From a virus, in the IMG/VR virus record IMGVR_UViG_3300030060_008146, positions 1 to 46,242 of that record: DNA of 46,242 bases; one strand, given 5' to 3'. This document shows positions 7,709 through 46,242 of this stretch, one piece after another; position 1 is the stretch's first letter; each line of letters opens with the position of its first letter. A program made the translations under genes and the position numbers. The notes beneath the pieces are model-generated. The model was not told the DNA's origin. It did no database searches and saw only the letters and a list, made by a program, of their open reading frames with translations.

Positions 7709-7715
7709 CTATATA

Positions 7716-7723
7716 TATTTATA
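7716..7723 (-). promoter_or_regulatory. Late promoter (TATAAATA) for the 1548-aa fibre
   Basis: A full T4-consensus TATAAATA on the minus strand ends seven bases before ATG 7708. It lies in the 25-base gap after the preceding adhesin gene and would start a second transcript within the fibre block. Confidence 0.7.
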
Positions 7724-7733
7724 CGTTAAATTT

Positions 7734-8540
7734 TTATCCAATATTTTGGTTTGTTCCAAATCTATCCTTAGTTGCGTTATAATTTTGTAAAATCTCTTCT
7801 GCTGTTAATGTCCTTTCATAGTACATATAACAATTAGCTCTCATTGTAGGAGGACCGTATCCACCGCTCCAGCTTCCCCAGGTTGCCATATCATTACCAG
7901 ATGGAGCAGCAAAAGATGCACTAGCAGTAGATTCACCATCAAATAACCCATTAAAATATAATTTAGTTTTATAGGTACCTCCAGGTATATCCTCATCTGT
8001 TGTAGCCATACAAAGCCACTGCTGTGGATCGTTGAATTCTGTTGTCACACGGGAATAAGAACCAGTAGTACCAGAATTAGGATATCTTAAAAACCCTCTC
8101 GCACTACTTGTCCCCCCGGGGGATAAATAAAAAGAAGTTTTAGATTGAAAACCTCCACCGTAAATGTTGTCTGTTCGTTGGCTACTGTTACCATACGGAA
8201 AATTAAACCAGCAGAAGAATGTATAATTATTTACATTAGTTCTTGTATAGGCTTCGTTAGATAACCAACCCGGGTCTTCATTTGTATCTGTAACACCATC
8301 TTGATTATATAACCATAATCCCGTTTGCTCATGTCTTGTAAAAGACATTTCCGGGGTAGCATCTGTGTCATATACTCTTAAATAATCATCTGCATGATCA
8401 CCCTCTGTCGCTAAGTTATATAACTTAGTATTTTCATCAATAGCAACAGTTGGGTTTGGGAGGCATCTGGGATTATTTACATCATAATACCATACTAACC
8501 CTTCTGTTACTATTCTAGCTGTATTATGTGAAACACTCAT
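7734..8540 (-). CDS. LamG/concanavalin-like tail adhesin (268 aa)
   Basis: The N-terminus reads 'VTEGLVWYYDVNNPRCLPN', the usual opening of phage LamG-type proteins ('DGLVxxxDxxNPxxY.G'). The rest fits a jelly roll (NNYTFFCWFNFPYG, KTKLYFNGLFDGES, MRANCYMYYERTLTAEEILQNYNATKDRFG); the last segment is the standard C-terminal LamG strand and helix. The start overlaps the previous stop by four bases, so the two are coupled. It is a sister of the gene before it, sharing the GLV...NPRC opening. It probably binds carbohydrate at the fibre or baseplate. Confidence 0.8.
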   Translation of the reverse strand: MSVSHNTARIVTEGLVWYYDVNNPRCLPNPTVAIDENTKLYNLATEGDHADDYLRVYDTDATPEMSFTRHEQTGLWLYNQDGVTDTNEDPGWLSNEAYTRTNVNNYTFFCWFNFPYGNSSQRTDNIYGGGFQSKTSFYLSPGGTSSARGFLRYPNSGTTGSYSRVTTEFNDPQQWLCMATTDEDIPGGTYKTKLYFNGLFDGESTASASFAAPSGNDMATWGSWSGGYGPPTMRANCYMYYERTLTAEEILQNYNATKDRFGTNQNIG

Positions 8541-9268
8541 CCTGTTGTAAAACTAGCCCCTCTAGAGGTTCGTCCTTTGTATATGTTATATGTATATCTA
8601 ACTTCATCGTCTGTCAACTTTCTATCATAAACTGCTATAGCTTCGTTATAAGCATGTCTATAATCTGAACCACCAGGGGGAATAAAAGTAGTCATATGAC
8701 TTAAAGAAGAACCAGAACTTGTTTGACCTAAATTACCTGTTAAATTAACAGCACTTCCTGCCTTAGTATCGTTTACCCATAGTTGTGAAGCTCCTGGAGC
8801 TGCACATTGTAAAGTTAATAAATATGTCCCTCCAGGGCTTAATATTGCGGTATTTGTAATATTAGTCCACCCACTTGCATCTCCTGCAGTTTGATTACCA
8901 TACCATCTAAATTTTAACTGAGAACCGTTTCCAAGATAGTTTCCAAAATGGTATAATATAAAACTAGCATTATTAGCATATGAACTATTCCATTTACTTA
9001 CAGGATGTTCAGCATAACCGGTATGTGAGCGTAATACATGTATCAATGTAAAGAAAGTAATTTCAGATATATCATTAGCCCATGAAGATATATTAGCGTT
9101 AGACCATGTATCTTCAGCATTTAAGCTAGATTGCTGTGATATGGTACCGGTTACAGAGGGATCTGCTAAATTTATACTAGTAGATCCTTGATAGCATCTT
9201 GGATTTTTAAAATCCTCAACAAATACTAAACCGTCACGTATTAAATGACCTTTTATTTCAGACGCCAT
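8537..9268 (-). CDS. LamG/concanavalin-like tail adhesin (243 aa)
   Basis: It opens with IRDGLVFVEDFKNPRCYQGS and ends with a 'YNEAIAVYDRKLTDDEVRYTYNIYKGR' helix-strand typical of LamG domains in phage tail proteins. The middle has alternating beta-strand pattern (ASFILYHFGNYLG, TYLLTLQCAAPGASQLWVND). It overlaps the end of the giant fibre gene by 11 bases and the next adhesin by four, so all three form one translationally coupled unit. No catalytic residues can be assigned. Two related LamG proteins side by side point to duplication and divergence of receptor-binding tips. Confidence 0.8.
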   Translation of the reverse strand: MASEIKGHLIRDGLVFVEDFKNPRCYQGSTSINLADPSVTGTISQQSSLNAEDTWSNANISSWANDISEITFFTLIHVLRSHTGYAEHPVSKWNSSYANNASFILYHFGNYLGNGSQLKFRWYGNQTAGDASGWTNITNTAILSPGGTYLLTLQCAAPGASQLWVNDTKAGSAVNLTGNLGQTSSGSSLSHMTTFIPPGGSDYRHAYNEAIAVYDRKLTDDEVRYTYNIYKGRTSRGASFTTG

Positions 9269-12200
9269 CTACTTCTACCTCCATTCTATCGATATCTTTA
9301 CGTTCACCATATACTACGTAGTTATAGCAATCAGAAACTCCACCTATACAAATATGTTCATTGCTCTGACACTTAACATATAAACACTGATAACTACCCA
9401 CTGGTGTTAATATTACTGAAACAGAGTCATCTCTAACTAATCCTTTCCAATATTCTGGTAAAGTAATACAACTTTTATCAGTTTTACCTCTAAATTGTAC
9501 ACCCCATTCTGGAGCCTCTACAGCACCGTGTTTTAGTTTATAACCAGGCTTTGTTGGGTGATCAATTAAGAATGCTTTTGTACAAGCACTAAAGTGATTA
9601 ACACCGGTTAGATCACCATCTATAATAACAGCTCCTGTAGATCCAGCAATACACCCGGTAACACATACTCCAGTATTTGTTGTCTCAAACTTCTTAGAAC
9701 CGTTGTAATATAAATCAACAGAGCCATCTTTGGTAAATTTAGCCTGAGCTTCACCACCTGTTGTTTGAATGTTAGTAGATGCATCAGCTAATAAGAAAAG
9801 AGCACCAGTACCGCTATCTTTAATAACACTATTACTTCCATCATGGTATATTTGTAAATCCTTATGATTACCTGCTGTTATTTTACCATCATCAGGAACA
9901 GCAACTTCAGATGTTGCACTAAGACCTGCAACACAAATGCCAGTAGATGTCGTCTCAAACTTTTTACTGTTGTCATGATAAAGCTCTACTGCTCCGTCAT
10001 CCAAAAATTTAGCTTGCGTTTCACCTCCATCTCCAGACCTTATACATGTATTATTACCATCTAGATATAAAATCCCATTAGTAGCAGCTACTCTTGTATA
10101 TCCAGTCGTACCTTCAATTTTATTGTTTCCGTCGTGATATAATTGTAAATCAGCACTACAGCCTAACCCTATCTTGTAGCCATCCGGTAAGTTTAACGCC
10201 TCATTTAAAGTATCAGTACCAATACCAACTCTCGGAGCAGAAGCATTAGCAGATAACGTCATGGCAAATCCCTGTGATGTACCTATTCTTACAGAACCTG
10301 ACTTACCACTAGTAAGACATAATTCTGCTGCGTTGCTAACATATTGTGCATCAAGTTTTGTTCCAGCAAAACAACTACTTGCGTTAATTACTTTACCTAG
10401 TATGGTACCACAAGTAGTTTTAATATCACATCTACCGCTTATAGTACCAAATACGGTAAGTTTTTCATTAGGTGTAGTAGTACCTATACCCACGTTACCA
10501 GCAGAAACAGGTAAACCAGTACCTATTAATATTTGTTCTTCACCACCATCTAACCGCAAGTAATCAACTTCATTACCATAGCCGTCGTCAGCTTTAAATA
10601 AAATATCAGCATCAGATGCTTGATTGCAAAAAGTTATATTTCCTTTGGTACCAATTAATAACGCGTTAGTATCATTATGACTTATTGTAAAATCTTCATT
10701 AGTTCCAAATCCAGCTGTTACATTATCAGCAAATCGGAAGTTTTGCTTAACACAAGTATTATTTGCACTACTATCAATCCTTATATACTCAGCAGCAGTA
10801 CCACTGGAGTTTTCAGCGCAAAATACGATATCATTACCATGATCATAGTTATAGAAAATTATATCACCACTATGACTTTCAACAAAATTTGTTGAACCAT
10901 CGTGATAAAATCTAAAGTTACCACCTGTACCAAATCGAAGGCTGCAATTATTTACTAAGTTGAGAGAACCAGAAGGTGAGTTTGTACCTATACCAATATT
11001 ACCAGCAAAATAGTTAGGACTAGGACCAGCAGCACTCAGACTTCCACTAGCGCTTATGTTACCATGTACAGTTAATTTTTCAGCTGGTGCTACTGTACCT
11101 ATACCAACATCACCCCCATTTTCAATAGCAACAGAAACAGATCCAGTATTATTTTTAATGTATTGTATACCAGAAGAACTGGCTGTCCAATCATTAGTAT
11201 AAAGAGCATTCCCTACAACCAAATTACTGCTAAATTCACCGTCTCCACATACATAAAGTATACGCGATGATATTGTCGGTGTACCAATATTAACCTTACT
11301 AGCAAAATAGTTAGGACTAGTACCACCAGCACTAAGACTACCACTGGCGCTTATATCACCAAGTACAGTTAATTTTTCTGCCGGAGCTGGTGTTCCTATA
11401 CCGACATTACCCCCCTCGAGAATCGTCAATCTTTCGGTAAGGCCGCCACCGCCATTGACTCTTGTTGATAGAGCCAAGCCCGCTCCGTAATCCCCGCCAG
11501 TAGCATTCGTTTTCTTTGCTTCTATGCTTCCGAATACTGTTCTGGTCGTGCCTGAATATGCTCCATAAAAATCAATCTCTCCACCAACACCCGCTGCCGC
11601 AGAAGTTGTATCAGCAACAATTACAACCCCATCAGAACCTTTTGCTCCAGCGACCTCAAGCTTTGTTCCTGGATTAGTTGCACCTATACCTACGTTATTG
11701 GTTGATCTATGAATCGTTAATGCATCAGCACCTAATGAACCATTATAAATACGAAACATATTTGTTGTTGCACCACCAACATATTGGTTCTCAAGGCCCC
11801 AAGTAATATCACCATTAATTAAATTTACCTTTGAAGACGCTGTCGATGTTCCGCTTACGGTAACGGTAGGTGTAGCTCCAGTAATATCAAGTAAAGATTG
11901 CGGTGTTATTGTTCCTATACCAATATTACCAGCAAAATAGTTAGGACCAGGACCAGCAGCACTTAAACTACCACTAGCACTTATGTTACCAAGTACAGTT
12001 AATTTTTCAGCTGGTGCTACTGTACCTATACCTACGTTACCACCTTCCTCAAGACGCATTAATTCATCAGAACCATTGACATCAAATATGATATCACTGT
12101 TTGCACTTACTTTTGTATCATCGTTAAACTTTATGTAAGAGCTTGCATAAGTTGTTCCTTTAAATTTTTTATCATCACCTAATGCTACATTACCAGAAGA

Positions 12201-24778: not shown

Positions 24779-25243
24779 ATGAAGTGTTTATGTTTCTTAG
24801 TACTTTTATGTAGCAGCAGTCTAGCTAATGAATTAACATTTAGGTTTAAATCTCCTTCATTTAGTGGTATTGGGTATAGTGCGCATAAGATAAATCTAGA
24901 AAATATATCTGCGGCTAGAAAGAAAACAATTAGAGATGAATTAAAATCATTAGAAATTCAAGCTAATTTAGCTGCCCAAAGAACTCCTTTGAATGTATTT
25001 ATGACTAATTTACAGTCAAGGATTTATTCAGAGCTCTCTAAACAGGTTACAGAGCAACTATTCGCTGATACAGGTTCAGATTCAGGTTCTTTTAATCTTG
25101 ATGGTAATACTATATCATGGTATAGATTAGCTGACCAAATAAATCTGACAGTAACTGATACTGATGGTGATCTTACTAACATATTAATTCCTATTGGATC
25201 ACTTCTATTACCTGAGCCAACTAATGAAACAACTACTGAATAG
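24779..25243 (+). CDS. csgF: CsgF-like curli assembly factor (154 aa)
   Basis: A signal peptide (MKCLCFLVLLCSSSLA, cleavage near residue 16) is followed at once by 'ELTFRFKSPSFSG', which aligns with the mature N-terminus of E. coli CsgF (TMTFQFRNPNFGG). In E. coli this segment inserts into the CsgG pore. The C-terminal part, with predicted beta-strands (ISWYRLADQINLTVTDTDGDLTNILIPIGSLLLP), matches the CsgF end that contacts nascent curli. The gene overlaps csgG by 20 bases, as expected for partners. It acts in the periplasm and outer membrane. No csgE is visible. A csgF gene on a T4-like phage is unusual. Confidence 0.85.
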   Translation: MKCLCFLVLLCSSSLANELTFRFKSPSFSGIGYSAHKINLENISAARKKTIRDELKSLEIQANLAAQRTPLNVFMTNLQSRIYSELSKQVTEQLFADTGSDSGSFNLDGNTISWYRLADQINLTVTDTDGDLTNILIPIGSLLLPEPTNETTTE

Positions 25244-26108
25244 TCTTTTAAGTTTAACACTTTTAAGCGGTTGCGCAACTTTTAATGATAGTGAACTTAA
25301 TAAACCTCCTATCGTAGCTCCAACCCCTTTACAAAATAAATTAACTACTATACCAGAATTAGATGGTGAACCTATTTATATTGGAGTTAATAGCTTTAAA
25401 GACTTAACTGGAGCAAGAAAACAAGCTGATAATTATGCAAGTTTCTCTTCTGCAGTTACTCAAGGTGGTGAAGCATGGTTAATTGAATCTCTTTTAGAGT
25501 CAAATGGTTGGTTTAAAGTTTTAGAAAGAGGTCAATTAGATACAGTAATGAGAGAAAGAGCTTTAGTTCAACAAACTAGAGAAGACTTTACTGATGATGA
25601 TGAAACTGGATTAAAACCTTTATTATTCGCTGGATTGCTTATACATGGAGGAATTATAAGTTATGATACTAATATGATTTCTGGTGGTGTAGGAGCTGCC
25701 TACTTAGGTATAGGTGCTCATGAACAGTACAGGAAAGATGTGGTTACTGTATCATTAAGATTAGTAAGTACGTTAACGAGTGAGATTCTTCTATCTTCAA
25801 CTGTATCAAAAACTATATACTCAACCTCACTAGGATCAGATGTATTTAAATTTGTTAACCAAGCTTTAGATTCTCTTGAATTCGAAATAGGATATGCTAA
25901 AAATGAGCTAGTATCGGTAGCTACTAGAGCAGCTATAGATTTAGCTATTTTAGATTTAATTGAAAAAGGAGAAAAAAATAAAATGTGGAAATTTAAAAAA
26001 AGTACTGTAAAAAATTTACCTAAACTACCTGAAAAAGAACTAGTTAAAAAAGAACAATTAAGTAAAAATAAGAAATATAAGTCTTCGTTTAATAAAATAA
26101 AAAGATAG
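25224..26108 (+). CDS. csgG: CsgG-like curli secretion channel lipoprotein (294 aa)
   Basis: The start at ATG 25224 gives a classical lipoprotein signal with lipobox LLSGC (Cys17). The mature part follows E. coli CsgG closely: EPIYIGVNSFKDLTG, the constriction region DNYASFSSAV (E. coli YPASNFSTAV, so the pore Phe is kept), WFKVLERGQLDTVMRER, SYDTNMISGGVGAAYLGIGA, VVTVSLRLVSTLTSEILLS and the C-terminal helical part. CsgG forms a nonameric outer-membrane pore that secretes curlin subunits. The last ~35 residues are Lys-rich and unlike E. coli. Overlap with csgF and the curlin-like gene 20 bases downstream point to a complete secretion unit. Confidence 0.93.
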   Translation: MKQLLNSLLSLTLLSGCATFNDSELNKPPIVAPTPLQNKLTTIPELDGEPIYIGVNSFKDLTGARKQADNYASFSSAVTQGGEAWLIESLLESNGWFKVLERGQLDTVMRERALVQQTREDFTDDDETGLKPLLFAGLLIHGGIISYDTNMISGGVGAAYLGIGAHEQYRKDVVTVSLRLVSTLTSEILLSSTVSKTIYSTSLGSDVFKFVNQALDSLEFEIGYAKNELVSVATRAAIDLAILDLIEKGEKNKMWKFKKSTVKNLPKLPEKELVKKEQLSKNKKYKSSFNKIKR

Positions 26109-26116
26109 ATTTTTAA

Positions 26117-26122
26117 TAAATA
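26117..26122 (+). promoter_or_regulatory. Late promoter (TAAATA-N5-ATG) of the curlin-like gene
   Basis: AATAAATA in the eight-base region after csgG is followed by exactly five bases and ATG 26128, giving the presumed secreted substrate its own transcript. Confidence 0.65.
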
Positions 26123-26127
26123 ATTTT

Positions 26128-26958
26128 ATGAACATAAAATCTATTTTAACAGCTATTCTTTTATCAAGTGGTTTAGTATTCTCTTCAAATGAAATTTACT
26201 TAGACCAGATTGGTAGTGCTGGTATATTTAATATATCTCAAATTGGATCCAGTAACAAATTAGGAGAAGGTACTAATCGATCTAGAATTGAAGGAGAAGA
26301 AGTTATTTTTAATGTAGCAACTATAGGTAACGAAAATTTAATAGATATCGACTCTATTGGAAATGAAGAAGTAGTAAATCTTCAAGTAGAAGGTGATGCT
26401 AATGACTTTATTTTAGCTCTTGAAGGTGATCAAAACACTGTAAATGCTTTTGTAGCAGGAGATTCAAACAGCGTTTTAATTGCAGGAGACCAGGAAGATA
26501 CTCAAAAAGCTACTGTAAATAACGGATTAATAAATTTAAATGTGGAGGGTGCTTCAAATGATATAGAACTATTACTATTTGATACATCATATACTTTTAC
26601 AGATTATTTCATTGGTGGCTCTTTAAATACCATTAGCTCTTATCAAGAAGGTCACGGTGGATTAATCGGACATTCACAGCTAGTTGATGTTTTCGGTAGT
26701 AGTAATAATTTATTGATATCTCAAGTAGGTTCTGAAAGTCAATTTATTGAGCTCTCAGTTTTAGGAAATGAAAACACATATCAAATATATCAAACTGATG
26801 GAAGCTTTGAGCCATCATTCATGCCTGAGCAAATTGGTAACGGGGTTAACCCAGTTAACGATTTTACAAATCCTGATGGTATTCCAAAAGTTCCAACACT
26901 TGTTATCGAACCACGTCCATTATTACTCGAAGGTATTGTTCTCGAACAGGGTCAGTAA
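26128..26958 (+). CDS. Secreted curlin-like repeat protein (276 aa)
   Basis: A signal peptide (about residues 1-19, SILTAILLSSGLVFSS) precedes repeats that follow the curlin pattern x-Q-x-G-x-x-N-x-x-x-x-x-Q-x-G: LDQIGSAGIFNISQIGSSN, IGNENLIDIDSIGNEE, VEGDANDFILALEGDQN, and later VFGSSNNLLISQVGSESQ and VLGNENTYQIYQTDG. CsgA and CsgB use such repeats to form amyloid beta-helices. The Gln/Asn ladder is incomplete in the middle repeats. The C-terminal 45 residues (PEQIGNGVNPVNDF...VLEQGQ) are Pro-rich. It lies right behind csgG with its own late promoter, so it is probably the substrate of the CsgF/CsgG channel. Whether it forms amyloid is untested. Confidence 0.8.
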   Translation: MNIKSILTAILLSSGLVFSSNEIYLDQIGSAGIFNISQIGSSNKLGEGTNRSRIEGEEVIFNVATIGNENLIDIDSIGNEEVVNLQVEGDANDFILALEGDQNTVNAFVAGDSNSVLIAGDQEDTQKATVNNGLINLNVEGASNDIELLLFDTSYTFTDYFIGGSLNTISSYQEGHGGLIGHSQLVDVFGSSNNLLISQVGSESQFIELSVLGNENTYQIYQTDGSFEPSFMPEQIGNGVNPVNDFTNPDGIPKVPTLVIEPRPLLLEGIVLEQGQ

Positions 26959-27859
26959 TATAGTTCTTATAATAAGTTTTGTCTTATTACCTATACTTGC
27001 TTACGCTGACATAGGCAGTGTAACGTCTCAAACTAAAGCAGCTAGAATTACCCGCAAAGGTGATAAATTTCTTACTGAAGTTAATACTTCAGTTGAAATG
27101 AGAGATTTAATCGAAACCTTAAAAGGTAAAGCTAATATAAAATTTATAGATGATACTAAAGTGAGTGTTACGGAATATTCTAAACTTTTAATAGATGAAT
27201 TTGTTTATAACCCGGAAAAGAAAACAGGTAAGCTATCATTAAAAGCAGCATTAGGTACTATAAGATACTCTTCAGGTAAAATTGCTAAAAACTCTCGACA
27301 AAATGTAAAGATAAAATCTCCAACTGCTTCAGTTACTGTAAGGGGTACTGATTTTACTATGAATGTTCAAGAAGATGGAGCTAGTAGTTTTCTATTATTA
27401 CCATCAAAGGATGATGCCGGTAACTCGTTTGTTGGATCTATAGATGTTTCAACTCTTGGAGGTACTGTTACTTTAAATAAAGCGTATCAAGCAACTACTG
27501 TTACTTCAGCTATAGCAGCACCAACACCACCGCAAATTATACAGCAAGATGGTCCTCAAGTAAAGAAAGATAAAAATAAAAAAGAAAATATGGAAGAAGA
27601 TAGAAAGCCAGAAGATGATAAAAAACAACAAGATTTTGAAGATATTGAAATAAAAAGAAAAGAAAAGAAAGCCACTAATGCTTTTTTAAAAATGGATGAT
27701 GGGAGATATGTTTTCTTTTCTAAAGATAAAGATAACGTTATTTCTCTTATAGTAGAAGATGGTAGTAATGTTACTGTAAATTATGATAATAGAGGCAGTA
27801 TTATTAACGCTAAGATGAACTCAGGTAATAACGTACAATTTAATATAAAACAACAATGA
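26936..27859 (+). CDS. FecR-domain secreted protein (about 307 aa)
   Basis: The FecR core is clear: 'DIGSVTSQTKAARITRKGDKFLTEVNTSVEMRDLIETLKGKANIKFIDDTKVSVTEYSKLLIDEFVYNP', then 'GKLSLKAALGTIRYSSGKIAKNSRQNVKIKSPTASVTVRGTDFTM', typical of FecR beta-helical domains. The Lys/Glu-rich linker (about residues 205-245) is followed by a short C-terminal domain. The start is uncertain: TTG 26936 gives a signal peptide ending LLPILAYA and a 23-base overlap with the curlin gene. The in-frame ATGs at 26768 and 26876 lie far inside the curlin gene and add sequence that is not signal-like. It overlaps the cyclase gene by four bases. FecR and CHASE2-cyclase genes are often linked, suggesting a sensor pair. 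Confidence 0.8.
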   Translation: MFSNRVSNIVLIISFVLLPILAYADIGSVTSQTKAARITRKGDKFLTEVNTSVEMRDLIETLKGKANIKFIDDTKVSVTEYSKLLIDEFVYNPEKKTGKLSLKAALGTIRYSSGKIAKNSRQNVKIKSPTASVTVRGTDFTMNVQEDGASSFLLLPSKDDAGNSFVGSIDVSTLGGTVTLNKAYQATTVTSAIAAPTPPQIIQQDGPQVKKDKNKKENMEEDRKPEDDKKQQDFEDIEIKRKEKKATNAFLKMDDGRYVFFSKDKDNVISLIVEDGSNVTVNYDNRGSIINAKMNSGNNVQFNIKQQ

Positions 27860-29913
27860 AATTTTTTAATATTAAAAACTATCTTATATGTCTATTTATA
27901 ACTACACTTTTGGTAATATTAAGAATGATAGATCCATTCTTTGTAGAAACTTTAAGACTCAAAGGGATAGATTACTATCAAACTAAACAAGAAAAGGTAA
28001 AATCAGAAAATATAGCTATAGTTGAAATTGATGAAGCAAGTTTAGATCAAAATGGTCAGTGGCCTTGGAATAGAGAATTAATAGCTAATGGTGTAGAAAA
28101 AGCATTTGAAAGTGGAGCTCAACTAGTAGTTATACCTATTTTATTTGCAGAAAAAGATAGACTAGGTGGTGATGAAAAATTAATAAAAGTATTAAGTGAG
28201 TTACCGGTAATAATAGGTCAATCAGCAAGTACTAAAGGAAAAGGTTCACCCATACCTCGAGGGTTAGCTAGTATAGGAGAAAGCTTAGATGGGTGGTTAT
28301 ATGATTATCCAGAAGCGATAGGACCGGTTGAAAGTTTAGGACAATATGCCGCGGGGGTAGGTATGATAGTAACAGCTCCGGAGCTCGACGGGGTGGTGAG
28401 AAGGCTGCCATTGGTTATTCAGATTAAGGGAGAAGCGTATCCAACTATACCTTTAGAAGTTATACGTATGTTTGCCGGAGAACAGTCATACCAAGCTAAA
28501 GTTGATTTAGGTGGAGTTGAAGCTATAAGAGTTCCAGGATTTGACCCTATAAAGACTGATGCTAATTCAAGAGTATGGATAAATTATAAATACAAATTTG
28601 ATAAAGTTTCTTTTGCAAATGATGATTGGTCTGTAGTAAAAGATAAAATTGCAGTTATAGCTTTAACAGGAGAAGGTCTAAGCAATACCATTGCAACCTC
28701 TACTGGTATAAAGTATGGACATGAAGTAACTAGCTCAGCTTTACAGATGATAATAGATGAGTCAAGGTTGCAAAGACCAGCAGAAGCTACTATATATGAA
28801 GTTTTTATTACAGCTGCTTTTTGTTCTTTATTAATAATTGGTGCATTATGGTTATCTTATATAGCAAGTTTAGCTATTATAACAGCTGCATTAGCAGTAG
28901 GACCAATATTAGGAAGTCACCTCTATAATAGTAATGGGTGGCTTATAGATTATACATGGCCTATAACATGCATTTTTATTACTTGGTCAGTAGCAACATT
29001 TATAAGATTTATAAACGAAAATAAATCAAAACAGCAGATTAAGAAACAATTTGAACATTATTTAGCACCACCCATTGTTAAGTTGTTACAAAAAGATCCA
29101 ACCTTACTAAAACTAGGAGGTGATACTAGAGAGTTATCAATTCTCTTTAGTGACTTAAGAGGGTTCACAACTATTAGTGAACATTTTAAAACTAACCCTC
29201 AAGGTCTTACTGAACTAGTTAACAGATACTTAACACCTATGACTGGTTGTGTTATAGAATATAATGGTACAGTTGATAAATTTATTGGAGATGCATTAAT
29301 GGCTTTTTGGAATGCTCCTCTCGATGTTGAAGATCACAAAGTACAGTCAATTAATTGTGGGTTAAGAATGTTTGATCTCCTAGCTAAATTAAACAGAGAA
29401 GTAATGGCTGAAGGGGTGGATGAACTTAAAATAGGAGTAGGAATTAATACAGGTGATGTTGTCGTTGGTAATATGGGATCTGAACAGAGATTTGATTATA
29501 CTTGTTTAGGTGACGCTGTTAATTTATCATCTAGACTTGAAGGTCAAACTAAAGAATATAGAGTAGGTTTAATTATTGGTGAAGGTACTGTTAAAGATAT
29601 AGAGCATAGATTTAGCTTTGTAGAACTAGATAAAATAGCTGTTAAAGGTAAAAAAGAAGGGGTAAGAATATTTACTGTGTTAAATAATACTTCATTATGC
29701 TCTAACGGAGGTAATGTTGAACACCATAACACGTTTTTGTCTTTTTATAGAAAGCAGCATTGGAATAGAGCTATTAAAATGATTGATTTAAATCAAATTA
29801 CTTATCCGGAATTAAAAGACTATTATGAAATGATGCGGGAAAGAATAGAAAATCTTAAAAAGAATAGACCAGGAAAGGGTTGGGATACAATCTATAGAGC
29901 TACTTCAAAATAA
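27856..29913 (+). CDS. CHASE2-domain class III adenylate/guanylate cyclase (685 aa)
   Basis: Order: a membrane helix (about residues 9-23); a CHASE2 extracytoplasmic sensor domain (about 35-300), recognisable by 'IAIVEIDEASLDQNGQWPWNRELIA' and 'AAGVGMIVTAPELDGVVRRLPLV'; three membrane helices (about 310-385); and a class III cyclase domain (about 420-610). The cyclase shows metal-binding Asp in SILFSDLRGFTTISE and in FIGDALMAFWNAP, a substrate Lys in TVDKFIGDA, and DYTCLGDAVNLSSRLE. All are intact, so the enzyme should be active, more likely on ATP because of the Lys. ATGA overlap with the fecR-like gene. It would make a cyclic nucleotide in the infected cell's cytoplasm in response to an envelope signal. 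Rare in phages as far as I know. Confidence 0.93.
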   Translation: MKFFNIKNYLICLFITTLLVILRMIDPFFVETLRLKGIDYYQTKQEKVKSENIAIVEIDEASLDQNGQWPWNRELIANGVEKAFESGAQLVVIPILFAEKDRLGGDEKLIKVLSELPVIIGQSASTKGKGSPIPRGLASIGESLDGWLYDYPEAIGPVESLGQYAAGVGMIVTAPELDGVVRRLPLVIQIKGEAYPTIPLEVIRMFAGEQSYQAKVDLGGVEAIRVPGFDPIKTDANSRVWINYKYKFDKVSFANDDWSVVKDKIAVIALTGEGLSNTIATSTGIKYGHEVTSSALQMIIDESRLQRPAEATIYEVFITAAFCSLLIIGALWLSYIASLAIITAALAVGPILGSHLYNSNGWLIDYTWPITCIFITWSVATFIRFINENKSKQQIKKQFEHYLAPPIVKLLQKDPTLLKLGGDTRELSILFSDLRGFTTISEHFKTNPQGLTELVNRYLTPMTGCVIEYNGTVDKFIGDALMAFWNAPLDVEDHKVQSINCGLRMFDLLAKLNREVMAEGVDELKIGVGINTGDVVVGNMGSEQRFDYTCLGDAVNLSSRLEGQTKEYRVGLIIGEGTVKDIEHRFSFVELDKIAVKGKKEGVRIFTVLNNTSLCSNGGNVEHHNTFLSFYRKQHWNRAIKMIDLNQITYPELKDYYEMMRERIENLKKNRPGKGWDTIYRATSK

Positions 29914-38990: not shown

Positions 38991-39731
38991 TTATTTATTA
39001 AAAGCAGCCTCTAATGCACTCTTTATTTTGTCTTCTGCACGAGAATCCGGATCATCTTTTCTCCCTGGTGAGATCTCTCTATGTGTTGTTACTGTTGAAA
39101 GATCTTTTGGCCACCCCCACTTTTCGAATCTAGGGACTAGCCATTCAACTGCAGAAGCTACTTCATCATCAGTTAACTCTCTTGTATGCGTATTACCACT
39201 AAAAGATAAACCTAATAAAAAGCCATTACAGTTTGTGCGGCCATTAAAACTTGATTTACCTGCATGCCAGCACCGACGATCATCATCAGCAAAAACTGTT
39301 CTTTCACCATTAGTATCTATAAGACAGTGATATGATACCTGCGACTTTGATTGACATATCCAACTTACTGAACCTGCATATGAACCCGACGAGTGGTGAA
39401 GTACTACCCCTTCAGGTCTAATTTTTGAAGAAGATATGTTTGGTGATGGTTTACTAATTTCTGGATATGTTCCGTCGACGGCACTTGATGCGACCTGAAC
39501 CACTGCGGGTTCTTTACTTAAGCCTAACGCTTCTGAAATAGTTTTTGCTGTGTTAGGTCCATAAGCACCATCTGGAAGAGAATCAGTTTTTTTCTGAATA
39601 ATTTTAGTAAGTTCTTCTTTAGTAAATCCTAGCTTACTTATAATTTTTAACGCAGTATTCTTACCGTAAATACCATCTGCTGTAGCTCCTACAGCCTCTT
39701 GAATTTTTTTTGTTGTATCTTTAAGTGCCAT
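38991..39731 (-). CDS. Endolysin: N-acetylmuramoyl-L-alanine amidase with two peptidoglycan-binding repeats (246 aa)
   Basis: Cleaves the amide bond between muramic acid and the stem peptide. Two short PG-binding-type repeats at the N-terminus (about 9-35, AVGATADGIYGKNTALKIIS; about 45-70, DSLPDGAYGPNTAKTISEAL) precede an amidase_2/PGRP domain (about 105-245). Zinc ligands are visible: the His112/His113 pair in GVVLHHSSG, His217 in VTTHREISPGRKDD and Asp226/227 in the position of the third ligand. No signal peptide, so a holin is needed for release. It is divergent from the holin-like gene, and both share a perfect 15-base inverted repeat over their starts. Confidence 0.92.
   Translation of the reverse strand: MALKDTTKKIQEAVGATADGIYGKNTALKIISKLGFTKEELTKIIQKKTDSLPDGAYGPNTAKTISEALGLSKEPAVVQVASSAVDGTYPEISKPSPNISSSKIRPEGVVLHHSSGSYAGSVSWICQSKSQVSYHCLIDTNGERTVFADDDRRCWHAGKSSFNGRTNCNGFLLGLSFSGNTHTRELTDDEVASAVEWLVPRFEKWGWPKDLSTVTTHREISPGRKDDPDSRAEDKIKSALEAAFNK
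38992..38997 (-). promoter_or_regulatory. Late promoter (TAAATA-N5-ATG) embedded in the endolysin 3' end
   Basis: The motif overlaps the last sense codons and stop of the endolysin gene (AAT AAA TAA) and lies five bases before ATG 38986. Confidence 0.65.
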
Positions 39732-40669: not shown

Positions 40670-40856
40670 ATACATCTTTCCACAAGATCTTAAAATGTGG
40701 GCAAAGAGCGCAGGTCGTAAATTTTTAGAAGCTCAAGAAAAAGTTAACGCGTTATCTACTAAAAATATCTCAGCAAGCGCGTATTGGGATGAAAATGGTG
40801 ATGTTGCAATAATAACAGAAGAAGGTAAAATATATACATATGGCAAAACAAAATAA
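40656..40856 (+). CDS. Small hypothetical protein (66 aa)
   Basis: The ATG lies inside the end of the preceding gene, so it is probably translationally coupled. Sequence features: an amphipathic helix (DLKMWAKSAGRKFLEAQEKVNALS) and a short beta part (SAYWDENGDVAIITEEGKIYTYG). No recognised family. It overlaps the following basic peptide gene by 17 bases. Confidence 0.7.
   Translation: MENLEYIFPQDLKMWAKSAGRKFLEAQEKVNALSTKNISASAYWDENGDVAIITEEGKIYTYGKTK
40804..40831 (+). promoter_or_regulatory. Possible sigma70-like promoter before the basic peptide gene
   Basis: TTGCAA (40804-40809), 16 bases, TAAAAT (40826-40831), eight bases, ATG 40840. It lies inside the coding sequence of the 66-aa gene. 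Confidence 0.4.
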
Positions 40857-40980
40857 TACACCATCGTGGAAGATAAGTGATAGAAAACCTAAGAAAACTA
40901 GACAAGGAATTTCTAGAAATTCTAAAGGTCATAAAAAATATAGAGGACAGGGCGGTCCTTGTAAACGAAGAAAGAAGTAG
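40840..40980 (+). CDS. Very basic 46-aa peptide
   Basis: A short gene in frame with ATG 40840 and stop at 40978-40980. The product has about 15 Lys/Arg residues and ends HKKYRGQGGPCKRRKK. A C-terminal 'KKYRGQG' with basic flanks recurs in small proteins of T4-like marine phages as I recall. It could bind nucleic acid or ribosomes. Tight packing with neighbours on both sides supports that it is real. Confidence 0.65.
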   Translation: MAKQNNTPSWKISDRKPKKTRQGISRNSKGHKKYRGQGGPCKRRKK

Positions 40981-41000
40981 GTTTCTACGTTAAAGACGTA

Positions 41001-41006
41001 TAAATA
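41001..41006 (+). promoter_or_regulatory. Late promoter (TATAAATA-N5-ATG) of the DUF1549/DUF1501 pair
   Basis: GTATAAATA gives the full T4 consensus; TTGTT follows, then ATG 41012. Confidence 0.78.
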
Positions 41007-41011
41007 TTGTT

Positions 41012-42754
41012 ATGGTGAAAGCTATAACAATATTTTTATGTCTACTTTGCTCTAATATTCAAGCAAATCAAACGATAGATCATAGTAAAGAAATAGATAA
41101 AATTATTGCTAATGATCTTAAAAATAAAAGGATTGAGTTGCCTATAGTAGTTAACCCCTTCATATTTGTAAGGAGGGCATATATAGATATTGCTGGAAGG
41201 GTACCTACATACGAAGAATGGAAAACGTTTATAAAGAGACCCGACAGAAAGAAATTAATTGAAGATCTTCAAAACTCTAAAGGTTATACAGAAAGTATGT
41301 TTAACTTTTATGCTGATCTTCTTAGAATAAAGAGACGTCTTTCTAACAATATTGATGGTGATACATATATAACTTGGGTTAAACAAGAAATAGAAAACAA
41401 TACACCATATGATGAGTTTATAAAAAAGATATTAACTGCGGAAGGTAACATATGGGAGAATCCAGAAGTGGGTTATTTCTTAAGAGATGAAGGAATGCTT
41501 CTCGATAATGTTAGTAATACATTTCAAGCTTTTGCTGGAATGAATATAAGTTGTGCACAATGTCATGATCATCCATTTGATGATTGGACGCAGATGGATT
41601 ATTATAATATGACAGCATTCTTCACTCAGTTAAATACTAGAGGTAAAAAAGAAGATAGAAAGGAGTTTCAACGATTAAGAAAAGAAGCTGAAGAGTTAGA
41701 TAAGTCCGGGAAACAAAAAGGTTCTACTAATAGAATAGGACAATTTTATAGACATGGATATCAGCATACTATAGTACAGGATCAAGATAAGAAATTAAAG
41801 CTTCCAGATGATTATAAGTATAGAGATGCTGAACCCGGTGAAGTGGTAAAAGCTGAAACGGCAGTAGGAGACAGAGTTAAAGAGAAGCGTAAGAGAGAAG
41901 GGTTAAGAGAGAATTTTGCCAACTGGTTAGCTAATGATACACATCCAACATTTGCTGCTAATATAGTAAATCGGTTATGGGATAGATCGTTTGGCTTTCC
42001 ATTAATAGATAATTTAAATGAAGTAGCTTTATTTGATGAAGTAAAAGATGGTCGTAATACTCGATTAATAGAATACTTAGTTAAAGTGATGAAAGAGGTT
42101 GATTATGATTTAAAGAAGTTTAATAATATTTTATATAATACAAAGTTCTATCAAGCTAAAATTGACCCAGATAACGAATTTAAAGGGCCTGTTTTAAGAA
42201 GAATGACTAGTGCACAACTATGGGACTCTATAGTGACTTTATATCAAGGTGACCCGGACAAGTGGCAACCTAAGGACAGGAAGCAGGATTACATAGATCT
42301 CTTTACAGGTCTACAATCTATGCCTGTTAATGATGCTTTAAAAAAATGGGACCAGTATACTAAAATAAGAGGCAGTTATTATGAAGGTGCACCTAAAATA
42401 AAAGGTAATTTAGTAATAAGATCTTCACATATATTCGAAGGACGTAACGCTAATTTTTTAAGAGAGTTTGGTAGATCGGATAGAGAGCTTATTGAAACAG
42501 GTAACGAACAGCCAAACATAACCCAAATATTAAATTTAATGAATGGAGGTGTAACACAAGCACTTCAAGATAATAACGGGTACGTAGCTAGCCAAGCTAA
42601 AGATATGAAACGTGAATTAGGAATGAATATAATTTTTATATCTTATATAGGAAGAGCTCCTAATGATAAAGAGAGAGAATTATTAAAAGACGCAAGTTAT
42701 GAAGATATAGTATGGATACTAATTAACTCGCATGAATTTAAACTAATAAGCTAA
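41012..42754 (+). CDS. Secreted DUF1549/DUF1553 protein (PSCyt2-type), 580 aa
   Basis: A signal peptide (MVKAITIFLCLLCSNIQA) precedes a DUF1549 domain: PFIFVRRAYIDIAGRVPTYEEW, then FQAFAGMNISCAQCHDHPFDDWTQMDYYNMTAFF. The motif CAQCH (residues 181-185) is a c-type heme-binding signature conserved in this family. The C-terminal DUF1553 part is seen at 'NIVNRLWDRSFGFPLID', 'RRMTSAQLWDSIVTL' and 'DIVWILINSHEFKL'. Function is unknown; these proteins are abundant in Planctomycetes and Verrucomicrobia, paired with DUF1501 proteins and thought to act on polysaccharides or related substrates in the periplasm. At 580 residues it is shorter than most bacterial members. It lies behind a late phage promoter. 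Confidence 0.88.
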   Translation: MVKAITIFLCLLCSNIQANQTIDHSKEIDKIIANDLKNKRIELPIVVNPFIFVRRAYIDIAGRVPTYEEWKTFIKRPDRKKLIEDLQNSKGYTESMFNFYADLLRIKRRLSNNIDGDTYITWVKQEIENNTPYDEFIKKILTAEGNIWENPEVGYFLRDEGMLLDNVSNTFQAFAGMNISCAQCHDHPFDDWTQMDYYNMTAFFTQLNTRGKKEDRKEFQRLRKEAEELDKSGKQKGSTNRIGQFYRHGYQHTIVQDQDKKLKLPDDYKYRDAEPGEVVKAETAVGDRVKEKRKREGLRENFANWLANDTHPTFAANIVNRLWDRSFGFPLIDNLNEVALFDEVKDGRNTRLIEYLVKVMKEVDYDLKKFNNILYNTKFYQAKIDPDNEFKGPVLRRMTSAQLWDSIVTLYQGDPDKWQPKDRKQDYIDLFTGLQSMPVNDALKKWDQYTKIRGSYYEGAPKIKGNLVIRSSHIFEGRNANFLREFGRSDRELIETGNEQPNITQILNLMNGGVTQALQDNNGYVASQAKDMKRELGMNIIFISYIGRAPNDKERELLKDASYEDIVWILINSHEFKLIS

Positions 42755-42755
42755 T

Positions 42756-43958
42756 ATGAACAGACGACTATTTATACAAACCCTAGCAGCATCTACTTAC
42801 GGTCTAAAGACATTAGATGCTAAAGATGTACCTATAGCTTCAAAAGCTAAAAATGTTATTTACATTTGCTTAGACGGGGGTATGAGCCATATAGATTCTT
42901 TTGATCCTAAAGATAATAAAGATGTAATGGGAGATACAACAAAGATAAGCACAAATGTAAGTGGAATAGAATTAGGTAATAGGTTACCAAAATTAGCAGA
43001 AGTAGTAGATAAAATGTCTATTATAAGATCAACACATTCTAAAACAGGAGCACATGAACAAGCTCAATATCTTAATAGAACATCTTATAGGCAAATAGGT
43101 AGTATAGTACATCCAAGCTTGGGTTCTTGGGTAGCTCATATTCAAGATAGAGAAAAAGATATTCCTGATTATGTTTTAATTTCTGGTTCTTCTGCTCATC
43201 CTAATTCTGGATTCTTACCTAAGGTTAAATCTCCTCTACCTATTATAGATCCTAATGGAGGGTTAAAAAATTCTAAAGTAGATAGTAAACTTGAAGAAAG
43301 AATGCATATATTACGAGAGATCAATAGTAAGTTTAAAGCACCTCTAGCTACAGAGTATAATGAGTTCTATGATAATACAGTAAGATTTTTAAAATCTAAA
43401 GATTTAGAATTATTTGACTTAACTAAAGAGAGACCAGAATCTAGATCTAGATATGGTAATACTAAATTAGGCCAAGGTTGTCTTTTAGCTAAACGTTTAA
43501 TTAAAGGTGATATTAAATTTATAGAAATTAATAACGGTGGTTGGGATACCCATGTAGATAACTTTACTAAGTTAGATAATAAACTTAAAGAAGTAGATGA
43601 TGCTTTAAGTGCATTAGTATTGGATTTAGATAGCGAAGGTCTTTTAGATACTACACTTATAGCTCTTGTGACTGAGTTTGGTAGAACGCCAAAGATAAAT
43701 GTTAATGATGGTCGTGATCATCATCCATCTTGTTATTCAACAGTTCTTATCGGTGCAGGGGTTAAAGGCGGCTACGTGGCTGGGGAGACTAATAAGACGG
43801 CATCTAAAGTAATTAAAAACCCATATACAATATCTGATGTTAACGCTACAATAGGGAGAGCGTTAGGTCTCCCAGTAGAACAAGAGTTTCTCTCACCAAC
43901 TGGTAGACCATTTTATATAGCTGCAAAAGGTACACCTATTAAAGAAGTCTTAGCCTGA
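42756..43958 (+). CDS. DUF1501 protein, alkaline-phosphatase/sulfatase-like fold (400 aa)
   Basis: Starts one base after the previous stop. A twin-arginine-type start (NRRLFIQTLAAS) suggests export. Family motifs: KNVIYICLDGGMSHIDSFDPK (metal site region), RSTHSKTGAHEQAQYL, VLISGSSAHPNSGFLPK, NNGGWDTHVDNF, and ALVTEFGRTPKINVNDGRDHHPSCYSTVLIGAGVKGG. These cover the Asp and His residues that bind metal in related hydrolases, so the enzyme looks intact and full length. Its partner is always a DUF1549/DUF1553 protein. The substrate is not known. Carriage on a phage suggests modification of a host surface polymer or exported substrate late in infection. Confidence 0.9.
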   Translation: MNRRLFIQTLAASTYGLKTLDAKDVPIASKAKNVIYICLDGGMSHIDSFDPKDNKDVMGDTTKISTNVSGIELGNRLPKLAEVVDKMSIIRSTHSKTGAHEQAQYLNRTSYRQIGSIVHPSLGSWVAHIQDREKDIPDYVLISGSSAHPNSGFLPKVKSPLPIIDPNGGLKNSKVDSKLEERMHILREINSKFKAPLATEYNEFYDNTVRFLKSKDLELFDLTKERPESRSRYGNTKLGQGCLLAKRLIKGDIKFIEINNGGWDTHVDNFTKLDNKLKEVDDALSALVLDLDSEGLLDTTLIALVTEFGRTPKINVNDGRDHHPSCYSTVLIGAGVKGGYVAGETNKTASKVIKNPYTISDVNATIGRALGLPVEQEFLSPTGRPFYIAAKGTPIKEVLA

Positions 43959-44123
43959 TAGCCAATCTAAAAGAGACGAATACCAAGGGTATTTAACCAA
44001 GTATTCAATTTCAATCCACGTATGGTCGCCTGAACTCTCTAATATCATATACACGTGTGTACTATCGGATTTTTTTATACGCCATATTATATTGTCTTTA
44101 TCTGGAGGTGTTATAAAATCCAT
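43950..44123 (-). CDS. Small hypothetical protein downstream of a terminator (57 aa)
   Basis: Found by reading the 210-base gap. ATG 44123 to stop at 43950-43952 encodes a product opening MDFITPPDKDNIIWRIKKSD, aromatic-rich at the end (YLVKYPWYSSLLDWLSG). It ends nine bases inside the convergent DUF1501 gene. Its ATG directly follows the U-tract of the terminator at 44123-44152, so it can only be expressed by read-through or from an unseen promoter. Codon use and composition look like a real protein. No family recognised. Confidence 0.5.
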   Translation of the reverse strand: MDFITPPDKDNIIWRIKKSDSTHVYMILESSGDHTWIEIEYLVKYPWYSSLLDWLSG

Positions 44124-44152
44124 AAAAAAAGCGCTCCCGAAGGAGCGCTTTT
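44123..44152 (-). terminator. Strong hairpin terminator of the outer-membrane protein gene
   Basis: GCGCTCC (44131-44137) pairs with GGAGCGC (44142-44148) around a CGAA loop, extended by A/T pairs on both sides. A run of eight A on the left is the U-tract for minus-strand transcripts. The short T-run on the right could also stop plus-strand transcripts weakly. Confidence 0.93.
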
Positions 44153-44168
44153 AAGGGTTATAGTTAAA

Positions 44169-44642
44169 TTAAAACTCGAATGAAAGACCAAGTCTAAGCT
44201 CGGTATCATCATCTTCAGCGTCAAAATCGTAACCTAAGGTATAAGTAGCAAATACTGCTTTACCATCACCGATCTCATACGATACACCAGCACCAGCACG
44301 AATGTCAAATCCAATATCGTCTGTATCAACCCAATTAAGGCCAACACCACCAATAGCAGAAACAGTACATCCATAAACTTCAGTCACATCATAAGATGCA
44401 CCAAGGTCGAAATTAAGATCACCGCTACCAAATTCAACAGCGGGCTTAATATCTACCTCAAGCCCTGCAAGGGCGATTGGAGCAGTAGTACCAACAACAA
44501 GACTATAGTCACCATCAGTTTTTGAAACTCCAATGCTATAATCAGTTAATTCAACACCTGCTACAGTTGCAGCTGCAGCGGGTCCAACAAGGGCCACAGA
44601 AGCAAAGGCTAATGCAGCGAGTAATGTAGTTACTTTTTTCAT
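44169..44642 (-). CDS. Outer-membrane beta-barrel protein with signal peptide (157 aa)
   Basis: A clear signal peptide (MKKVTTLLAALAFASVALVGPAAA, cleavage near residue 24) is followed by alternating amphipathic strands (YSLVVGTTAPIALAGLEVDIKPAVEFG, LNFDLGASYDVTEVYG, AVFATYTLGYDFDAED, LRLGLSFEF) with a C-terminal Phe, the Bam insertion signal. Size suggests an eight-strand barrel such as OmpA/OmpX/OmpW type. No SD, but TAAATA is seven bases upstream. It has its own terminator, so it is a single-gene transcript made late. A phage-encoded barrel could block re-infection or help secretion or lysis. Confidence 0.8.
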   Translation of the reverse strand: MKKVTTLLAALAFASVALVGPAAAATVAGVELTDYSIGVSKTDGDYSLVVGTTAPIALAGLEVDIKPAVEFGSGDLNFDLGASYDVTEVYGCTVSAIGGVGLNWVDTDDIGFDIRAGAGVSYEIGDGKAVFATYTLGYDFDAEDDDTELRLGLSFEF

Positions 44643-45030: not shown

Positions 45031-45036
45031 TATTTA
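45031..45036 (-). promoter_or_regulatory. Late promoter (TAAATA-N5-ATG) overlapping the lysozyme stop codon
   Basis: The TAA stop of the lysozyme gene is the first half of TAAATA; AAGAT and ATG 45025 follow. Confidence 0.68.
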
Positions 45037-45858
45037 AGTTTTATCTGCAAGTATACCAGCATTTCTCTCCATTCTCTTAACTACTCCATCTCTCCCTTTA
45101 CTCTTACGTCTTTTGTACTCTTTGTGATCAAGATATTCATTTGCAGCTTCTATATTTTTACCTTGTTGTAATAATTTAACCCAATTCATACCTGGTAATA
45201 AATCACCTCTATAACTAATATCAAGTAAAACAGCAGCTTGCTCATCATTTAAATCATTAAACGTCAAACCAAAAATACCTTTTACTCTCTCTAAATGATA
45301 GTTTAATCTCTTATTAAATAATTGTTCGGCAAATTGTGGTGAAATAGAGTTTCCGTATTTTTGTACCCATTTGTTTTTTGCTGCTCTAGAACCATCTCCA
45401 ATCTTATGACCTATTCCTATAGTATATATACCTACATCATCAGTATATGGTCTTAAAAACTTTTTATTTCTTGGGTCGTTAATATCGTCACCATAAATTT
45501 CTACCGGTTTAATTAAATTTCCAGCTAAATTAAGTACCTCAGAATCTGATTTATCTGGTGGAAAATCTTCTACAGCTGTAATTGATTTCGTAGCTTTTCT
45601 TGTATCAGGTAGCTCAGGAGGAGTATAGCCGTTCTTATCACGTGTTTCATATTGTTTCAAATACTCTTCTGCCGCTCTATGAAAGTTTGTTGAAGGCATA
45701 ATATCTTCAACTGTATCGATTGCATCAATTTTTTGTTCTATAGGCTCTGGTCGTTTATCCAGAAAATCTTGTATCTTATCTGCTGAAAAGGGTGCAGAAC
45801 CTATAGCTAATAAACCTAAAACTATTTCTTTCATACCTTCGTCAAATTGCTGAGTCAC
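45034..45858 (-). CDS. GH24 (T4-type) lysozyme with N-terminal extension (274 aa)
   Basis: The start is GTG 45858, five bases after TAAATA; the ATG at 45921 would lie inside the tmRNA and is excluded, while ATG 45834 is the alternative. Residues 111-274 are a T4-lysozyme-type domain: Glu120 in NLIKPVEIYGD, Asp140 or Asp141 in PYTDDVG and Thr146 in YTIGIGH correspond to the catalytic Glu, Asp and Thr. Downstream conserved helices and 'ISYRGDLLPG' follow. Residues 11-25 (EIVLGLLAIGSAPFSA) are hydrophobic, perhaps a signal or anchor; residues 30-110 are an acidic linker. With an amidase endolysin elsewhere, this enzyme could be a virion lysin or a second, exported lysin. Confidence 0.87.
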   Translation of the reverse strand: MTQQFDEGMKEIVLGLLAIGSAPFSADKIQDFLDKRPEPIEQKIDAIDTVEDIMPSTNFHRAAEEYLKQYETRDKNGYTPPELPDTRKATKSITAVEDFPPDKSDSEVLNLAGNLIKPVEIYGDDINDPRNKKFLRPYTDDVGIYTIGIGHKIGDGSRAAKNKWVQKYGNSISPQFAEQLFNKRLNYHLERVKGIFGLTFNDLNDEQAAVLLDISYRGDLLPGMNWVKLLQQGKNIEAANEYLDHKEYKRRKSKGRDGVVKRMERNAGILADKT

Positions 45859-45863
45859 GTATA

Positions 45864-45869
45864 TATTTA
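45864..45869 (-). promoter_or_regulatory. Late promoter (TAAATA-N5-GTG) of the GH24 lysozyme
   Basis: AATAAATA on the minus strand, five bases (TATAC), GTG 45858. It lies directly behind the tmRNA 3' end. Confidence 0.7.
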
Positions 45870-45887
45870 TTATAAAGAGGTTCCTAT

Positions 45888-46242
45888 TGGTGGAGGTGAG
45901 GGGGATCGAACCCCTGTCCATTAAGTTGTCAAAACAACCGTCTACATACTTAGATATATTCTATTTTAAGGATATATGGCTATATCAACCGTCCTACATT
46001 TCTTTTAATTATGTTATGTTCTAATCTAGCTGCTTATTACGCTAATCGCTATATTAACAACTCATTGCGTTACCCAAACACATTAATGAGAATCCATGTT
46101 TGTTTTCTACGCTGCTAAAAGCGCTTCTTCTTGAACCAAGAATGCATCTGGGTTGTTGAAGATGGCTTCTGCTTGCGCAAGAAGGTCTGCTTCTTCTTGT
46201 TCTGCAGTTATGTAATTAATCGGCTTTTAACGTGGCCAACCG
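45888..46242 (-). ncRNA. ssrA: tmRNA (ssrA), 5' end beyond the window
   Basis: The 3' end on the minus strand reads GGGGTTCGATCCCCCTCACC followed by TCCACCA, a tRNA-Ala-like T arm and acceptor with encoded CCA. Upstream lies a CTAAGTATGTAGACGG stretch typical of the tmRNA 3' domain. At the other end, CGGTTGGCCACGTTAAAAGCCG aligns with E. coli tmRNA just before its resume codon (CGGTTGGCCTCGTAAAAAGCCG). About 355 bases are present; roughly 50 bases with the 5' acceptor strand should lie past the edge. It is a normal one-piece tmRNA. It rescues stalled ribosomes by trans-translation. Phage-borne tmRNAs are uncommon. Confidence 0.93.
46107..46205 (-). other. tmRNA tag reading frame (32 residues)
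   Basis: The resume codon GCA is at 46205-46203, placed by alignment with E. coli tmRNA, and the stop TAG at 46109-46107. The encoded tag begins AEQEEADLLAQAEAIF and ends FLVQEEALLAA. The end matches the ClpX/ClpP-recognised LAA-type terminus, but the tag is about three times the usual 8-15 residues. Confidence 0.85.

Follow-up and report, generated by a model that had tools for sequence, protein, structure and literature searches.

Genes of the PSCyt type have been described from carbohydrate-metabolism gene neighbourhoods, from which a role in sugar use was proposed (PMC5615132). Among phages, the T4-like pelagimyophage HTVC008M and methylophage Melnitz carry a cassette of csgF/csgG and a CHASE2-cyclase gene, and have a late promoter box with a 5-nt gap (PMC9004378). 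The literature searched holds no report of the PSCyt2-PSD1 plus DUF1501 gene pair in phages and assigns no function to the pair. The sole paper found that reports DUF1501 in a phage (PMC5418858) concerns a weak CDD match in a 61-aa ORF and was set aside. The locus presented here is almost certainly a two-gene moron from a Verrucomicrobiota-type bacterium, taken up by a T4-like phage lineage and placed under a phage late promoter. There is equally little doubt that it consists of an exported PSCyt2-PSD1 protein and a constant DUF1501 partner.

The window analysed is a whole IMG/VR record (46,242 bp, 35.7% GC) and is itself a fragment of a phage genome. It is colinear with a 171-kb T4-like contig, G001, at 120.9-164.6 kb. 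T4-type terminase and virion genes are found in its relatives: they are present in G001, G006, G034, G035 and G036, and weak in G050. The two ORFs of the pair are both intact and one base apart. The likely terminator lies between gene 2 and the oppositely oriented outer-membrane protein gene, which has its own late box in the form AATAAATA-N7-ATG.

Table 1 Features of the gene pair and its surroundings (window coordinates).
Feature	Coordinates	Strand	Basis or remark
Amidase endolysin, neighbour of the pair	38991..39731	-	Amidase_2, E 1.3e-19; late box present
T4-type late promoter box TATAAATA	40999..41006	+	five bases ahead of gene 1 ATG at 41012
Gene 1, exported DUF1549+DUF1553 (PSCyt2-PSD1) protein, 580 aa	41012..42754	+	Pfam, AlphaFold
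Sec-type leader of gene 1 (MVKAITIFLCLLCSNIQANQTID)	41012..41080	+	by inspection
CAQCH haem-c motif of gene 1 (residues 181-185; sole CxxCH)	41552..41566	+	sequence
Gene 2, DUF1501 protein, 400 aa, alkaline-phosphatase/sulfatase-like fold	42756..43958	+	Pfam, AlphaFold
Twin-arginine (Tat-type) leader of gene 2 (MNRRLFIQTLAASTYGLKTLDAK)	42756..42824	+	by inspection
Likely terminator, G+C-rich inverted repeat AGCGCTCCCGAAGGAGCGCT	44126..44152		flanked by A and T runs; by inspection
Small exported outer-membrane beta-barrel-like protein, neighbour	44169..44642	-	weak OMP_b-brl, E 1.8e-4, under Pfam cut-off

Other features of the genome were observed along the way. Positions 24779-29913 hold csgF and csgG, the gene of a curlin-repeat-like exported protein and that of a CHASE2-cyclase, arranged as in pelagiphage HTVC008M. 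The contig end truncates a tmRNA gene (Rfam RF00023, 77.4 bits), whose 3' part occupies 45888-46242 on the minus strand; in relatives where this gene is complete, the encoded tag is acidic and unusually long (AEQEEADLLAEAEAIFNNPDAFLVQEEALLAA in L043). The ORF listed for the lysozyme (45034-45921) overlaps the tmRNA gene, and the lysozyme probably starts in fact at a GTG that follows AATAAATA-N5 some 60 nt inside the ORF. Near the pair, relatives carry a gene for an EF-hand exported protein (L043 4736-5110 and L156 13461-13931, both on the minus strand), which has a late box in G001.

Gene 1 contains DUF1549 (PF07583; E 1.3e-38, 133.4 bits against a cut-off of 29.8, profile positions 1-208 of 209) followed by DUF1553 (PF07587; E 4e-18, 66.2 bits against 28.5, positions 2-242 of 244), in this order and each above its curated Pfam cut-off. 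The N-terminus is hydrophobic in all viral homologues. The CAQCH motif, in its longer form CAQCHDHP, is invariant across 75 viral and cellular homologues, and a CxxCH on a predicted exported protein marks gene 1 as a candidate c-type cytochrome. The AlphaFold model is confident (pLDDT 91.5). Comparison with PDB folds returned no match beyond insignificant ones, some of them to phycobilisome linkers, and comparison with the viral folds of BFVD returned none. Since the fold has no known match, a redox role for gene 1 depends on the one motif. A sequence search of solved structures yielded chance matches to designed repeat proteins, which were discarded.

The first-pass annotation had described the haem protein as short beside bacterial ones. 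This holds only relative to cellular N-termini; truncation does not apply, since both Pfam domains are complete. Full-length viral gene 1 proteins range from 577 to 808 aa (median 594), against about 720 aa for the cellular relatives if the first Met of each ORF is taken as the start, which gives an upper estimate (minimum 583). The gap is mostly N-terminal sequence, and the protein in the window stands at the short end of the size range without being truncated. An 833-aa version with an extra N-terminal CxxCH stretch, accompanied by DUF1501, is found at 5489-9278 of a 171-kb virus contig, L200. This contig belongs to a separate phage lineage and probably represents another independent capture.

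Gene 2 matches DUF1501 over the full profile (PF07394; E 7.8e-94, 315.4 bits against a cut-off of 27, positions 1-390 of 390), so that the two genes form the complete pair already read from the sequence. The protein starts MNRRLFIQTLA, and R3, R4 and F6 are invariant among the aligned viral homologues. Export signals had been proposed for both proteins, and inspection agrees: the leader is Sec-type in gene 1 and twin-arginine in gene 2. The AlphaFold model of gene 2 is confident (pLDDT 90.6) and gives 211 PDB matches at E <=0.001; nearly all of those among the matches listed are sulfatases or LtaS-type enzymes. The predicted fold is of the alkaline-phosphatase superfamily type. By inspection, D264, H266, H322 and E307 are conserved; of the sulfatase metal site, residue 40 varies and E-F-G stands in place of the usual D-H-G.

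Over the final ~35 DUF1501 residues and in the DNA downstream (43854-44120), the window diverges sharply from close relatives. The C-terminal stretch is closer to the cellular consensus (ALGLP...GRPF), and a local recombination is therefore probable. Further DUF1501 genes occur elsewhere. A second, distantly related one (473 aa, with a canonical twin-arginine leader) is present in G005 (4248-5669, minus strand, directly after the pair), G015 (4802-6223, plus strand), L197 and L199. In another phage branch, many members have one more DUF1501 gene at a distance of a few kb from the pair (L154 5602-6873, L155 1109-2380, L157, L189 and others).

Gene 1 is preceded by TATAAATA-N5-ATG, spanning 40999-41014. 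The window has 13 copies of the octamer, and base composition predicts 10.8; because this count is near expectation, the octamer alone is uninformative and its placement is what informs. In G001, NATAAATA stands before 35 of the 159 ATG ORFs, against 0.7 expected from its density, mostly with a gap of 5-6 nt, and the ORFs concerned include virion, amidase, curlin-like and EF-hand genes. The window has such boxes before the genes at 3062 (-), 26128 (+), 38786 (-), 38991 (-), 39785 (+), 41012 (+) and 44169 (-). Ahead of gene 1, the box and its 5-nt spacing are kept in L002-L019 and L022, and the other upstream sequence differs; L003, L004 and L007 read CATAAATA. Similar boxes precede gene 1 in L146, L156 and L196; at that place the box is absent in the more distant L020, L021, L023 and L024. 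A box at a fixed distance before late genes, above chance, marks a predicted T4-type late promoter, and the earlier view of a full promoter that integrates the pair into the late programme is supported by this placement. The late box with a short gap is a general trait of the lineage and nothing special to the pair.

The T4 late box lies at -13 to -6 from the transcription start. Applied to gene 1, this geometry would put the start at the A of the ATG and predicts a leaderless late mRNA. In HTVC008M, the gap is 5 nt for 7 of 9 late boxes. Shine-Dalgarno motifs are not enriched over background in G001. This pattern suggests that late mRNAs are leaderless across the whole phage lineage and in HTVC008M. 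The transcript of the pair is probably leaderless, and translation of gene 2 is probably coupled to that of gene 1.

The borders of the unit can be read from close relatives. Among 13 contigs with the neighbouring amidase, 10 carry the pair (that of L218 is in L006 of the same contig); L223, L224 and L225 have none within the stretch read. The L223 alignment jumps from window position 40980 to 44167 across 149 bp, and that of L225 from 40789 to 43959 across 156 bp. Filled and empty sites indicate a mobile unit of roughly the promoter and the two genes. With its own promoter, and present or absent as a unit among close relatives, the pair is a moron. Because some close relatives live without the cassette, it is dispensable. 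The same spot in G001 also holds sugar-nucleotide genes, which marks it as a variable site.

The first-pass annotation had named a contig chimera at 41.0 or 44.0 kb as a way in which its reading could fail. The genes are otherwise bacterial and have no match in 50,697 GenBank phage records, as a chimera or a functionless, neutral bacterial cargo might predict. Against this, the G001 synteny and the empty sites rule out a chimera at either position, the junctions are identical in many independent contigs, and the phage late box is in place. Selection on the pair is purifying: close relatives give dN/dS values of 0.025-0.10 (gene 1) and 0.056-0.09 (gene 2), distant comparisons being near saturation. 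With dN/dS at or below about 0.10 and the pair unbroken in 68 loci, synteny and selection together refute both chimera and neutral cargo, whose probability is practically nil.

Other phages with the pair had been thought worth seeking, and an IMG/VR profile search returned 73 viral loci with gene 1. DUF1501 is directly downstream in 68/68 of the loci with enough sequence, a few of which share a contig. The contigs include T4-like genomes with terminase, and a second pair-bearing phage group (L250, L251) whose terminase matches other PHROG terminases. Neither gene belongs to a PHROG family, and tblastn against the GenBank phage records found neither. In L154, the pair lies inside the head-gene cluster, beside the prohead protease. 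This position, like a late promoter common to virion genes, would suit virion-associated proteins that are brought into the next host. Such a role is very improbable, as both proteins have export leaders and close relatives lack the pair.

The pair had been called a hallmark of Planctomycetes and Verrucomicrobia. In the cellular set, which comprises the best 80 loci among the matches listed, so that closer cellular kin may exist, 77 loci are planctomycete, verrucomicrobial or lentisphaeral and the other 3 are from Acidobacteria; this agrees with the earlier attribution. Nearly all cellular loci have the gene order of the phage pair. The window belongs to a clade of 35 viral representatives in the gene 1 tree (support 99), and this clade sits within a set otherwise made up of Verrucomicrobiota and one planctomycete. 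Twelve other viral sequences group with Opitutia, and L023 and L200 stand apart; about five changes of virus label are needed. A single clade of all sampled viral sequences was rejected (AU test, p 0.0036), as was a topology holding the two main viral groups together (p 0.0003). The tree indicates that phages captured the pair several times. The gene 2 tree is ambiguous on origin.

Possible evidence on the host comes from G015, which shares 7.9 kb with the window at 99.5% identity. At L044 2887-4017, this phage contig carries a host-like sigma-70 factor. The best match of this factor is from Verrucomicrobiota (60% identity, 325 bits), and the best planctomycete match scores lower (52%, 269 bits). 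The likely host phylum is Verrucomicrobiota, on which the gene 1 tree and the sigma factor agree, and the initial PVC link is thereby sharpened. The concern had been raised that the closest relatives might all be viral and distant from PVC bacteria. The closest are viral without exception, but the cellular branches next to them are PVC. Of the checks that had been suggested, the phylogeny of gene 1 pointed to Verrucomicrobiota. As a host marker, tmRNA does not discriminate, and the CRISPR-type short matches fell mostly on the tmRNA 3' end or on stretches recurring in many genomes, with no clear spacer.

The initial observation is thus confirmed and its interpretation supported in part; that the pair alters a surface polymer at the end of infection is one candidate role. 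What the pair does can be addressed through its timing and surroundings. We tentatively favour envelope remodelling, a reading that is possible but short of probable. Late in infection, both proteins would cross the inner membrane, gene 1 via Sec and gene 2 via Tat, and haem would be attached to gene 1 on the outside by the host cytochrome-c maturation system. The two could then work jointly as a redox-plus-hydrolase pair, located in the periplasm or envelope and directed at a capsular or envelope polymer of the host. The surface might thus be remodelled during virion assembly, in step with the late-box amidase, the small outer-membrane protein and the adjacent lysozyme. Late timing, two export leaders and the adjacent amidase, lysozyme and outer-membrane barrel favour this reading over its rivals. 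Against it stand the sulfatase metal site, only partly recognisable in DUF1501, and the respiratory-type genes near the cellular relatives. Taken as a whole, our best explanation is slightly more doubtful than credible.

Those cellular neighbourhoods would also suit an auxiliary metabolic pair. Such a pair would boost the degradation or oxidation, in the host periplasm, of (sulfated) saccharides or of other organics and feed the electrons into the respiratory chain of the host, so that a long late phase is supplied with energy. In two Opitutia MAGs, which have one or two DUF1501 genes, the next gene after the pair encodes a membrane protein that has a PSCyt1 cytochrome domain, which suggests electron transfer, and sucC/sucD-type genes lie upstream. 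The carbohydrate neighbourhoods of PSCyt genes (PMC5615132) fit too. However, the late promoter sets expression at virion assembly, lysis genes adjoin the pair, and one more copy would be of little gain to hosts with many. We consider metabolic support somewhat unlikely and rank it below envelope remodelling.

Superinfection exclusion, or receptor masking, comes lower still and is quite improbable: the exported pair would change a surface structure bound by related phages. The pair is exported, accessory and in a variable site, where a relative has its sugar-nucleotide genes. Exclusion genes, however, are usually early and the pair is late, and a surface-changing enzyme pair bearing a haem motif would be unusual.

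That phages have captured the two genes repeatedly and keep them strictly paired shows them to be one selectable unit, and several captures make its function worth testing. The phage pair offers a compact version for study (580 + 400 aa), with a use tied to the end of infection, and is a metagenome marker of probable Verrucomicrobiota phages. More speculatively, and in our view unlikely, it could be a recurrently captured phage tool for a PVC-specific envelope polymer, used by phages of these bacteria for efficient release or spread. If true, phages would carry one of the largest uncharacterised Verrucomicrobiota/Planctomycetes protein families in its minimal, single-function form, which would open a route to its function.

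Compared with known systems, the locus resembles phage morons and auxiliary genes, which likewise have their own promoter, are present or absent as units and are host-derived. Its late box is identical in octamer, TATAAATA, to T4-type late promoters, and these also stand ahead of virion and lysis genes; unlike in T4, the gap to the ATG is only 5-6 nt and the mRNA probably leaderless. HTVC008M and Melnitz have other hosts (SAR11 and OM43, respectively), and the GenBank records of both lack the pair. DUF1501 resembles sulfatases and LtaS at the level of the fold (Foldseek E 2.8e-8), and differs in a TM of ~0.4, an identity of ~10% and, by inspection, usual metal ligands that are partly recognisable. 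The closest counterpart is the 'planctomycete-specific' PSCyt2-PSD1 plus DUF1501 pair of PVC bacteria, with the same domains, gene order, CxxCH motif and export leaders. The phage pair differs from it in its phage genomes, late promoter and shorter N-terminus, and forms a distinct clade with ~35-40% identity to the cellular kin. We read it as a variant, carried by phages, of a pair known from bacteria, and captured several times.
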